Source: Streptomyces sp. NBC_00341 (GTDB lineage Bacteria; Actinomycetota; Actinomycetes; Streptomycetales; Streptomycetaceae). Taken from it: a stretch of DNA of 64,000 nt. The stretch covers positions 1,364,001 to 1,428,000 of the forward strand of contig NZ_CP108002.1 in NCBI RefSeq assembly GCF_041435055.1, given 5' to 3'. The number at the start of each line of letters is the position of its first letter. The stretch's first letter is position 1. Positions 54,075-57,652 of this stretch are shown piece by piece. Under the pieces are notes generated by a model. It ran no database searches, was not told the origin of the DNA, and worked only from the letters and a program-made list of their open reading frames with translations. The position numbers and the translations under genes are program-made.

Positions 54075-54299
54075 ATTCGGGTGCCGCACGGCGCCGTCAT
54101 CCGGGCGCGGCCCGGGCGCACGAGGCGGCTGGTGCGGTGAGTGATCCTGGTGTCCGTCATCCGGCCATCGAGCCGGGTGGTGAGGAAGAGCGGGCAACGG
54201 GCCCGTATCGTGGTGACCGGCCACGGAAGTGCCGGGCTCCGGCCGGAGGGTCGTGAGCACGAACCCACTCCTTGCCACTTTTAACTTATAGCGCATGAG

Positions 54300-54319
54300 G
54301 GGGCTTGCCACAAGGCCCC
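54300..54319 (+). promoter_or_regulatory. Rifamycin-associated element (RAE)
   Basis: GGGGCTTGCCACAAGGCCCC at 54300-54319 is an inverted repeat closely matching the rifamycin-associated element found before rifamycin-inactivation genes and helR in actinomycetes (established knowledge; consensus quoted from memory). It lies 210 bases upstream of helR, just after an AT-rich stretch ending TTAACTTATAG that could be the promoter's -10 region. Confidence 0.75.
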
Positions 54320-54368
54320 GGTCATGGCGCAGAATCATCGGCCGAAGACCAGTATTTCGCGGAGACGG

Positions 54369-54533
54369 GTGAGTCACGAAGTGCGTGTGCTGTTGTCGGC
54401 CTGCGGGTCGCGCGGTGATACCGAACCGCTGACAGAACTCGTCCCGTCATGGCCACCAGGTACACCGCGCCGGTCCAGGCGCCCCGCCGCACGCACCGGC
54501 TGCGAGCGGCCCAGTTCGGAGCTGATGACGTGA
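54369..54533 (+). pseudogene. Stub resembling the start of a rifamycin glycosyltransferase
   Basis: After GGAG, a GTG at 54369 opens VSHEVRVLLSACGSRGDTEP. The VRVLLS...GSRGD pattern is the N-terminus of UGT-type glycosyltransferases, including the rifampin glycosyltransferase Rgt that is also RAE-controlled. After about 22 codons the similarity ends and the frame closes at TGA 54531-54533, overlapping the helR GTG by 4 bases. Most likely a glycosyltransferase gene was deleted between RAE and helR, leaving its start. Alternatively a short coupled leader ORF. Similarity was judged by eye. Confidence 0.5.
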
Positions 54534-56677
54534 ACCCCCTGACCACCAGCGCGTTCGACCTTCCCGACCGCCTCTCCCCCAAGGCCGATCCGGCCCTGAT
54601 CGCCGGCGACGAGGAGCACTTCGCGGCCATCGCCGAGTGCCTCGACGAGTCGATCTCCGAACTCACCGAGCGCCTCGCCGCGGAGCGCAGGACGCCCGGC
54701 GGCGCGGGCCGGCAGGCGATGGACCGGGACGTGGAGATCCACCGGCTGACCGCCCGCCTGCGCGCGCTGCGCCGCTTCGGCCTCGACCTGTGCCTGGGGC
54801 ACATGGTCGCGGCGGACGACGGCGAGCCGCTGTTCATCGGACGGCTCGGCCTCACCGACAGCTCGGGCCGCCGGCTGCTCATCGACTGGCGCTCCCCCGC
54901 GGCCGAGCCGTTCTTCGGCGCCACCCACGCCAACCCGATGGGACTGGCGAGCCGCCGCAGGTACCGCTGGACCCGCGGCCGGATCAGCGACTACTGGGAC
55001 GAGGTGTTCACCGCGGAGGGGTTCGCCGGGCACGCCGCGCTCGACGACCAGTCCGCGTTCATCGCCAGCCTGGGCAGCAACCGCTCGGCCCGGATGCGGG
55101 ACGTGCTGGGCACCATCCAGGCCGACCAGGACGCCATCATCCGCGCGGGCTCGCGCGGCGCGCTCGTCGTCGACGGAGGCCCCGGTACCGGTAAGACGGT
55201 CGTCGCCCTGCACCGTTCCGCCTACCTCCTCTACTCCGACCCCCGGCTCGGCCACCGCCGGGGCGGCGTGCTGTTCGTCGGCCCGCACCAGCCCTACCTG
55301 GGCTACGTCGCCGACGTGCTGCCCAGCCTCGGTGAGGAGGGCGTGCAGACGTGCACCCTGCGCGACCTGGTGACCGAGGGAGCCGCCGCGGGGCCGGAGG
55401 CCGACCCGGAGGTGGCCCGCCTGAAGTCCTCCGGGAAGCTGGTGGCGGCGGTCGACGCGGCCGCCAGGTTCTACGAGGAGCCGCCCGCCAAGGGGATGAC
55501 GGTCACCACCCACTGGTCGGACATCCAGCTGACCGCCGCCGACTGGGCCGTGGCGTTCGACGCGGCGGAACCCGGCACCCCGCACAACGAGGCGCGCGAC
55601 CAGGTCCGCGACGAGCTGCTCACCATCCTGGTCGAGAAGCACGAGGGCGACGTCACGGACGCCGTACTGCGCAAGTCGCTGCTGAAGAACCGGGAGCTGC
55701 TCACCACCTTCGACCGCGCCTGGCCGCTGCTGGAGGCGGCCGACGTCGTCGGGGACCTCTGGTCGGTCCCCGCCTACCTGCGCAGATGTGCTCCCTGGCT
55801 CAGCCGCGACGAGGTGTCCCGGCTCCAGCGGGAGGACGCCCAGGCCTGGACGGTGTCCGACCTGCCGTTCCTGGACGCGGCCCGGCAGCGGCTGGGCGAC
55901 CCGGAGGCGTCCCGCCGCAGCCGCCGGCACCAAGCGGCGCTCGCCGCCGACCGCGAGCACATGGACAAGGTCATCGACACCCTGCTCCAGGCGGACGACG
56001 ACGGTGAGGGCGCCGTGACGATGCTGCACGGGAAGGACCTCCAGGAGGCCCTGGTCGACGACAGCGGCGCGCCCGGCACCGAACCGGACGAGCTCGCCGG
56101 ACCGTTCGCACACGTCGTCGTGGACGAGGCCCAGGAACTGACCGACGCGGAGTGGCAGATGCTGCTGCTCCGGTGCCCGTCCGGCAGCTTCACCATCGTC
56201 GGGGACCGCGCCCAGGCCCGCCACGGCTTCACCGAGTCGTGGCAGGAGCGGCTGAGGCGGGTCGGGCTGGACCGGATCAACCTGGCTTCCCTGAGCATCA
56301 ACTACCGGACGCCGGAGGAGATCATGGCGGAGGCCGAGCCGGTCATCCGGGCCGTGCTCCCGGACGCCAACGTGCCGGCCTCCGTCCGCAGCAGCGGGCT
56401 CCCCGTCACGCACGGCTCCACGGCGGACCTGGGCCCGGTCCTCGACACCTGGCTCGCCGCCAACGCCGACGGGATCGCCTGCGTCGTGGGCGATCCCGGG
56501 TTCAGGCCGACGGCCCGCGTCCGGTCGCTGGCCCCGGAGCTGACCAAGGGGCTCGAATTCGACCTGGTCGTCCTCATCGACCCGCAGACGTTCGGCGAGG
56601 GCATCGAGGGAGCCGTCGACCGCTATGTCGCGATGACCCGGGCGACCCGGCAGCTCGTCATCCTCACGAGCCCCTGA
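54530..56677 (+). CDS. helR: HelR, RNA polymerase-recycling HelD-class ATPase (rifamycin tolerance)
   Basis: GTG 54530 (VNPLTTSAFDLPDRLSPKAD) has GGAG 8 bases upstream and gives 715 residues; ATG 54449 is an alternative. An N-terminal helical coiled region (to about 110) precedes superfamily 1 motor motifs: Walker A GGPGTGKT (about 216), VVVDEAQE (about 530), IVGDRAQ, INYRT, ELTKGLEFD and VAMTRAT. The length, N-terminus and upstream RAE identify HelR, which removes rifamycins and recycles stalled RNA polymerase. Confidence 0.85.
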   Translation: MNPLTTSAFDLPDRLSPKADPALIAGDEEHFAAIAECLDESISELTERLAAERRTPGGAGRQAMDRDVEIHRLTARLRALRRFGLDLCLGHMVAADDGEPLFIGRLGLTDSSGRRLLIDWRSPAAEPFFGATHANPMGLASRRRYRWTRGRISDYWDEVFTAEGFAGHAALDDQSAFIASLGSNRSARMRDVLGTIQADQDAIIRAGSRGALVVDGGPGTGKTVVALHRSAYLLYSDPRLGHRRGGVLFVGPHQPYLGYVADVLPSLGEEGVQTCTLRDLVTEGAAAGPEADPEVARLKSSGKLVAAVDAAARFYEEPPAKGMTVTTHWSDIQLTAADWAVAFDAAEPGTPHNEARDQVRDELLTILVEKHEGDVTDAVLRKSLLKNRELLTTFDRAWPLLEAADVVGDLWSVPAYLRRCAPWLSRDEVSRLQREDAQAWTVSDLPFLDAARQRLGDPEASRRSRRHQAALAADREHMDKVIDTLLQADDDGEGAVTMLHGKDLQEALVDDSGAPGTEPDELAGPFAHVVVDEAQELTDAEWQMLLLRCPSGSFTIVGDRAQARHGFTESWQERLRRVGLDRINLASLSINYRTPEEIMAEAEPVIRAVLPDANVPASVRSSGLPVTHGSTADLGPVLDTWLAANADGIACVVGDPGFRPTARVRSLAPELTKGLEFDLVVLIDPQTFGEGIEGAVDRYVAMTRATRQLVILTSP

Positions 56678-56725: not shown

Positions 56726-57616
56726 TCACTCGTCCAGGAGGACCAGATCGCGGCCGGCCAGCCCGGCCGGGTCGGTGATGACGAACAGTTCGACGACCTT
56801 CCCGCGCTCGATCGTGAACCGCATGACGGAGAAGCCCTCTCCCTCGCGCGCCGCGATGACCGCGGGGGCGCCGTCGAGCAGCGCGAACCGCACCGACCTG
56901 GCGTACGGCGCGAACATGATCGCCCGCCGCGCCACGTTCGCGGCCCCGCGCACCACCGTGGGGGCCTCGACGGCGCTGCCGCCGGACCGGGACACGACAT
57001 CGGGGTCGAGCACGGCGACGAGCGCCTCGAAGTCCCCGCCGCGCGCGGCCGCCAGGAAGGCGTCCACGACCTCGCGGCGGACCGCCCCGGGGCCCGGCTC
57101 GGGCGCGACGCCCCGCACCCGGCGGCGGGCCCGGCTGGCGAGCTGCCGGGCGGCGGCCGGGGTGCGGTCCACGATGCGGGCGATCTCGTCGAACGGCACC
57201 GCGAACATGTCGTGCAGTACGAAGGCGAGCCGCTCGGCCGGGTCGAGCGTTTCGAGGACCACCAGCAGCGCGAGACCCACCGAGTCGGCGGTCAGCGCCT
57301 GCTGCTCCGGGTCCCCGCCGGGCTCGGGGACGGGCGCCGGACCGGGCTCGGGCGCCTCGGACGCCCCCGCTTCCAGGGGCTCCTCGCGGCGGACGCGGCG
57401 CGAACGGAGCATGTCCAGGCAGACCCGTCCGACCACGGTCGTCAGCCAGCCGCCCAGGTTCTCGATCGCCGCGCTGTCCGACCGGGAGAGCCGGATCCAG
57501 GCCTCCTGGACCGCGTCCTCCGCTTCGTTCGACGAGCCGAGCATCCGATGGGCCACGGCCTTCAGATGGGTGCGGTTCTCCTCGAACCGTGCCGCCAGGA
57601 ACTCGATCTCGTCCAC
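56726..57616 (-). CDS. ECF41 sigma factor with C-terminal SnoaL-like domain (SigJ type)
   Basis: GTG 57616 follows GGAGG and gives 296 residues. Region 2 (FEENRTHLKAVAHRMLGSSNEAEDAVQEAWIRL) and region 4 (LDPAERLAFVLHDMFAVPFDEIARIVDRT) are followed by a SnoaL-like extension of about 110 residues that in ECF41 factors replaces an anti-sigma partner. The ECF41 promoter sequence lies 37-63 bases upstream on the same strand, so it drives its own transcription. Converges with helR. Confidence 0.93.
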   Translation of the reverse strand: MDEIEFLAARFEENRTHLKAVAHRMLGSSNEAEDAVQEAWIRLSRSDSAAIENLGGWLTTVVGRVCLDMLRSRRVRREEPLEAGASEAPEPGPAPVPEPGGDPEQQALTADSVGLALLVVLETLDPAERLAFVLHDMFAVPFDEIARIVDRTPAAARQLASRARRRVRGVAPEPGPGAVRREVVDAFLAAARGGDFEALVAVLDPDVVSRSGGSAVEAPTVVRGAANVARRAIMFAPYARSVRFALLDGAPAVIAAREGEGFSVMRFTIERGKVVELFVITDPAGLAGRDLVLLDE

Positions 57617-57652
57617 AGCCGTCCTCCCCGTGTCAGGTGTTCTCACCACGTT

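Follow-up and report, generated by a model that had tools for sequence, protein, structure and literature searches.

A probable rgt remnant between the rifamycin-associated element and helR of a Streptomyces chromosome, in a slot whose enzyme gene varies among relatives

Introduction

A short open reading frame separates a rifamycin-associated element (RAE) from helR in the chromosome of Streptomyces sp. NBC_00341, and the question that it raises is whether it is what remains of a lost resistance gene or a leader with a role of its own. Spanogiannopoulos et al. 2014 and Surette et al. 2022 reportedly described rgt, rph, rox and helR as rifamycin resistance genes under RAE control. A first-pass annotation of the DNA studied here had read the frame as the N-terminus of an Rgt glycosyltransferase, left over from a former RAE-rgt-helR operon in which the inactivating enzyme was deleted and only HelR was kept. 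In other species, HelR is described in passages of PMC10719064 as displacing rifamycin from RNA polymerase, and the RAE as being required for rifamycin induction, a role on which passages of PMC10194278 and PMC12802891 concur. By analogy with this published work, the RAE would presumably still induce helR in the strain considered here.

Results

The window, that is the whole stretch of DNA analysed (64,000 nucleotides, positions 1364001-1428000 of contig C1 in the 9.06-Mb genome G000), carries helR at 54530..56677 (+). Its 715-aa product is a HelD-family ATPase and predicted RNA polymerase protector, which scores 1284.6 bits against the NCBIfam model NF041254 (motor_HelR, cut-off 750), placing it in the class II HelD family, and its nearest solved chain is HelD 6yxu_H (E 1.4e-99). 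The GGAG at 54518..54521 (+), kept in the type C alignment, is the likely helR ribosome-binding site as read from the sequence. Beyond the helR 3′-end, a gene for a SigJ-like ECF sigma factor (window 56726-57649, minus strand) adjoins convergently, and relatives of this factor were found at only 5/80 named helR loci.

Upstream of this rifamycin resistance gene, the 19-base palindrome GGGGCTTGCCACAAGGCCC at 54300..54318 (+) was called an RAE by comparison with the RAE consensus. Agreement extends to 17/17 positions outside the central dinucleotide; the central two bases depart from this consensus, and the RAE copy before rph matches it exactly. The whole genome holds two mismatch-free RAE sites, the one before helR and one other at C1:5885703. 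Among 171 sampled distinct helR loci, an upstream site with at most one mismatch is present in 158, and with at most two in 167, and none was found in four, and the control DNA, made up of helR bodies and downstream regions, gave a single site (at most one mismatch) in 541,415 bases. Therefore the RAE before helR is not due to chance, and the element that had been placed at 54300 stands, with a length of 19 bases. Scanning of 54150-54560 for sigma-70-type promoters and terminators detected neither, so that no promoter is claimed.

The frame named in the first-pass annotation spans 54369..54533 (+), and the open frame upstream of helR can be read from 54324 (the first ATG) or from 54369. As had been stated, it stops at the helR start, its TGA at 54531-54533 overlapping the helR GTG at 54530 as GTGA. 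The exactness of this overlap is uninformative, because the conserved GGAGCTGATGACRTGA before helR places stops in two of the three frames at the helR start, and the overlap was dropped as a meaningful feature, being part of the conserved helR start region. A likeness to the start of an rgt-like gene is found at 54381..54431 (+), about 17 codons with the GTG start retained, as judged from nhmmer, from the heads of intact rgt genes and from the alignment with genome G166. Bases 1-61 of the rgt profile match the window leader (nhmmer E 9e-10), and the GTG at 54381, homologous to the start of the intact genes, lies 81 bases from the RAE start, within the 76-82 bases that separate the two in 53/55 intact loci. 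The second part of the frame, 54432..54529 (+), aligns to the rgt-helR spacer of G166. The reading of the short frame as an Rgt N-terminus thus holds for about 17 codons, and the rest is former spacer in a chance frame. Elsewhere in the same genome no further rgt was found at E 1e-80, the best other hit having 31% identity over 111 residues.

The content of the space between RAE and helR was then compared across relatives. A DNA search of the genus gave matches in 264/295 genomes, and the 100 best-scoring ones covering the helR start, among the matches listed, were taken, a choice that favours loci resembling that of the window; the named set consisted of the best 80 of 565 relatives from the species-genome scan, nearest first. 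Removal of a partial helR hit (L116) and eight duplicates from these 180 loci left the 171 distinct ones. The genus matches showed three patterns, in which the leader was matched whole, split by about 240 bases or split by about 1.3 kb, and the last are intact Rgt-like genes of about 400 codons. Intact rgt occupies the slot in 52 of the 171 sampled loci (35 of 99 genus loci and 17 of 72 named loci), a detectable rgt remnant in 54 (30 and 24), rox in two (one and one), and none of these in 63 (33 and 30), so the whole gene envisaged at the helR position does exist in relatives. Outside Streptomyces, the 29 named loci comprise three with intact rgt (Actinomadura craniellae, Actinomadura macrotermitis and Nonomuraea sp. 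MG754425), 12 with remnants and 14 without, and the rgt head and/or tail pieces before helR (54/171 loci) span several genera. Remnants were detected in 54/119 leaders lacking an intact gene, against 0/1190 shuffled and 0/119 reverse-complemented controls, and this count is low rather than high, because at least five of the 63 loci scored as having none (L049, L066, L093, L074 and L178) display an rgt head by alignment or eye.

The intact proteins are called Rgt-like here, because the 11/11 scanned score 500-689 bits against NCBIfam NF000354, below its cut-off of 800. No other NCBIfam family appeared at 1e-20 or 1e-100, the thresholds applied; this one was matched over nearly its full length, and the nearest solved chain is GtfB 1iir.

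The manner of loss is indicated by the surviving pieces. Every intact-length rgt has an open reading frame of at least 380 codons (52/52), and since no shorter frame of intact length occurs, the losses in this sample are deletions and not point-mutated copies. Head and tail pieces with the middle gone are found in L059, L069, L150, L155, L193 and L207, which imply an earlier whole gene and are explained only by deletion. Among the 31 remnant loci outside the clade with an older stub, described below, the deletion end points vary widely. Recurrent breakpoints or tandem duplication occur at CAPPD codons 36-38 of rgt (L035, L041, L142, L155 and the 26-species stub), and these GC-rich codons are perhaps a deletion hotspot. 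Two further arrangements were observed. In L154 (S. colonosanans) and L092 the rgt head continues in frame into helR, and an N-terminally extended HelR may result. At L044/L135 (genome G157; the same locus as L162 of Streptomyces sp. PKU-EA00015) an old-type stub precedes helR, and an intact rgt on the opposite strand, 90% identical to the query and with its own RAE-like site, adjoins the stub.

The path taken by the window's own lineage could be read from its two nearest relatives. The window, G166 and G204 form one clade of the HelR tree (support 100), in which the window groups with G166 (support 99). G166 and G204 carry one common remnant, with RAE-to-helR distances of 478 and 479 bases, aligned throughout, and there the frame from the same start stops 191-192 bases before helR. 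Compared with G166, the window is missing a single 248-base block between GAACCGCTGCC on the left and CCACCGCAGAC on the right, at a common ACCGC, and this 5-base microhomology stands at the window's deletion junction at 54425..54429 (+). Since both nearest relatives carry the longer common remnant and the window is without a further 248 bases, the window stub is, by alignment of these sequences, no leader peptide of old standing but a relic of a second, later deletion. An internal deletion had already shortened rgt in the ancestor that the three strains share; the window line then lost 248 bases between the two ACCGC copies, and the alignment shows that this joined rgt codon 17 to the spacer, about 98 bases before helR. 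Because RAE and helR were retained and rgt was lost, helR is now directly under the RAE.

Based on these results, the short frame at 54369-54533 is very probably the remainder of a gene for an Rgt-like glycosyltransferase, formerly located between RAE and helR. The former RAE-rgt-helR operon, with the enzyme lost and helR kept, is borne out by the intact operons, by the head and tail remnants and by the longer remnant in G166 and G204. The further claim that only HelR was kept is correct for this locus and not for the genome, which also keeps rph (NCBIfam 1598.8 bits, cut-off 999) under the second RAE (C1:5885703; L134:1501-1690). Between that element and rph lie about 24 codons of an rgt head whose start codon is lost. 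In the genus, rph occurs in 39/121 genomes. An RAE-like site is located 63-358 bases upstream of it in 30/30 loci, an rgt head precedes it in 11/30 (10 above 14 bits; shuffled control 0/300), and intact rgt precedes it in 0/30.

A short frame in front of helR could also be a leader ORF kept for its translation to the helR start, by coupling or by protecting the leader RNA from early termination, and we consider this possible but less likely than not; the frame tests concern an older stub in another clade. Of 31 loci with leaders of 205-250 bases, 26 were retained for frame tests after removal by hand of the window (L034), of L053, L190 and L191, which lie outside the clade, and of L178, which lies inside it with a different rgt head. 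These 26 species of one HelR clade have a common stub, in which about 38 rgt codons are joined to the spacer. The GTG start is kept in 25/26, no other three consecutive columns among 117 being equally conserved; premature stops are found in 0/26, the other two frames being stopped in 6/26 and 21/26; and in 24/26 the end of the frame falls 4 or 1 bases short of helR or 4 bases inside it. Neutral simulation on the helR tree (3000 runs) rarely or never reproduces this, with all 26 frames open in a fraction of 0.0017 or 0, by substitution spectrum, and at least 25 GTG starts in 0/3000 runs, and a star model gives 0.0004-0.0014. Among loci that carry indels, those whose net length breaks the frame are also rarer in the stub (5/16) than in the 5′ UTR (8/9; p 0.011).

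Several observations weigh against such a selected frame. The star model at half the divergence gives 0.017, and the codon-position signal is absent from the stub, where mean differences at codon positions 1/2/3 are 0.30/0.31/0.22 (the 18 of 26 loci that are in frame, those with frame-changing indels being left out), compared with 0.15/0.10/0.30 in intact rgt heads and 0.10/0.07/0.21 in helR. Open reading frames of at least 12 codons that end at helR occur in 16/28 and 10/29 leaders without a detected remnant, and they are common because two of the frames are closed by the helR start region itself. A stub is lacking altogether at many loci, and where one occurs in G166, G204 and others, its frame ends about 150-190 bases before helR. 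Folding did not indicate that the ribosome site of helR has to be opened (predicted unpaired values 0.41 against 0.39), and a structure-gated ribosome site was rejected, since predicted accessibility does not differ with or without the leader. In the 26-species clade, it may be translation through to the helR start, and not the stub peptide, that is under selection; the window's own stub is young by comparison.

For the window, then, the frame is best regarded as an rgt relic, and its wider history was traced on the HelR tree. Parsimony gives at least 27 changes between intact and not-intact states, a count that is rough and directionless because 71/168 inner branches are weakly supported; the direction is read from the remnants, above all from the six loci with head and tail pieces. 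Recent rgt losses separate two close pairs, S. diastatochromogenes from S. olivochromogenes (the contig of the former ends 381 bases upstream of helR, so that the stretch in which an RAE would be sought is missing) and L207 from L123. A 48-row clade of the HelR tree (support 98), in which the old stub is the usual state, also contains six intact rgt genes, and the proteins of these six are scattered on the Rgt tree. The helR genes of L084 and L073 belong to different clades, and the Rgt proteins of the two loci share 94% identity. Over a tract of about 1.4 kb that begins shortly upstream of the RAE and runs to the helR start, 100-base bins are mostly 90-96% identical between them (lowest bins 85 and 89%), helR itself being mostly 80-93%. 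Some lineages appear to have regained intact rgt through recombination, the case being strong for L084 only.

The enzyme in the slot can also be a different one. In Streptomyces anulatus and its kin (L204, L209 and L217), helR stands between the same neighbours as in the window, with identities of 89-91% for TetR, 81-84% for the aldo-keto reductase, 94-95% for ArgH and about 80% for HelR, and of 84-85% for the MFS neighbour, present in two of the three. Two of these loci have the RAE 96-97 bases before helR without rgt, and S. anulatus B-2873 (L209) has the order RAE-rox-helR at the window's chromosomal site (rox L209:961-2391), the same order being found in G005 (L121; rox L121:539-1975). The two rox products score 830 bits (L209) and 815 bits (L121), with a cut-off of 800 for the NCBIfam rifampin monooxygenase. 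The idea that the resistance set is rebuilt by deletion is therefore accurate as to the stepwise loss of rgt, and incomplete in that the slot is also refilled by rgt or occupied by rox.

The opposite order of events would have rgt arriving in an RAE-helR unit that already existed, with the stub as the earlier state. In its favour, loci without intact rgt are the majority (119/171), and some intact rgt genes look re-acquired. Of 30 rgt loci, helR follows directly in 16; of the remaining 14, 9 (9/30 overall) have their own RAE, so that an RAE-rgt unit exists that could have been inserted. The deletion reading is itself limited by the shortness of the rgt piece in the window, at some 51-61 bases, and the 63 loci with neither rgt nor rox and the S. 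anulatus group without rgt at the window's site imply that rgt need not be ancestral everywhere. For the window, however, insertion is very unlikely, as the stub is homologous base for base to the start of rgt, from the 5′ UTR onward, the head and tail remnants demand an earlier whole gene, and the window's relatives hold more rgt, not less; in other lineages rgt may have been inserted. Remnants of helR beside stand-alone rgt were found in 0/14 loci, so the reverse loss, with rgt kept and helR lost in place, is not seen in that sample. Five rgt-like loci (L257, L258, L262, L264 and L269) have neither an RAE within 300 bases nor a downstream helR, and are possibly glycosyltransferases of another role.

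A conserved regulatory leader peptide with no link to gene loss is a highly improbable reading of the frame. It had been allowed at the outset that the same short ORF in many species would speak for such a peptide, and a similar frame is indeed found at the same place in 26 other species, but that frame goes back to a separate, older deletion and shows no amino-acid conservation, so that it too is a relic. The first codons are rgt codons, the window's frame is not common to G166 and G204, where it stops well short of helR, and the leader peptide was rejected on the codon-position differences given above. Finally, a chance likeness of a GC-rich leader to the Rgt N-terminus, for which only the shortness of the window's rgt piece might speak, is a negligible prospect and is excluded by the empty shuffled and reversed controls set against the window's E of 9e-10.

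Discussion

This work points to a locus in which an exchangeable gene for an inactivating enzyme lies between RAE and helR; the polymerase protector stays, and the enzyme gene comes and goes. We tentatively propose, as a possibility that is still doubtful, that the space is an exchange slot, from which rgt or rox is lost by deletion between short repeats and to which it comes back by recombination through the conserved flanks, while a stranded rgt head is adopted as a translated ORF coupled to helR, with its start and frame selected and its peptide free; some rph RAEs were perhaps acquired likewise, on a piece carrying an rgt head.

As with the known RAE-controlled genes, the same palindrome lies upstream of helR, rgt, rph and rox, and the genes belong to the same families. 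What differs here is that a truncated rgt head is attached to the RAE at helR and, in part, at rph, and that the interval from RAE to helR varies by species, with rgt, rox, a relic or no such gene in it. A literature search over titles and the beginnings of abstracts returned no rgt remnant and no RAE-rgt-helR operon; Spanogiannopoulos 2014 and Surette 2022 lay outside its scope, and an earlier mention is possible.

Microhomology-mediated deletion leaves gene remnants in the general reduction of bacterial genomes, and the present series resembles these in the short repeat at the junction, the stepwise shrinkage and the end points that differ by species. It is unlike them in that many lineages are affected at a single slot, flanked by a control element and a gene that both stay fixed, and in that one clade has preserved the relic's start codon and frame. 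Short upstream ORFs, in turn, can couple translation to the next gene, and the stub of the 26-species clade shares with them a start, an open frame, a stop at the next gene and a peptide that is not conserved. Unlike known coupling ORFs, this putative one would be a fragment of a lost resistance gene put to new use, as the sequence statistics suggest. With the class II HelD proteins HelR of Streptomyces venezuelae and Mycobacterium abscessus, the window's HelR shares the family and the upstream RAE; the difference is the former rgt deleted between RAE and helR, which is absent from the cited passages of PMC10719064.

In conclusion, the series of loci provides dated intermediates, from a whole enzyme gene through fragments to a bare leader, in an environmental resistance set, and the role of the RAE-helR leader becomes open to direct reporter assay. 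For annotators, short ORFs after RAEs are mostly rgt relics, and an rph RAE can carry one too. In this sample the drug-altering part is lost and the target-protecting part stays, and the resistance set of a soil bacterium is worn down, and in places refilled, step by step.
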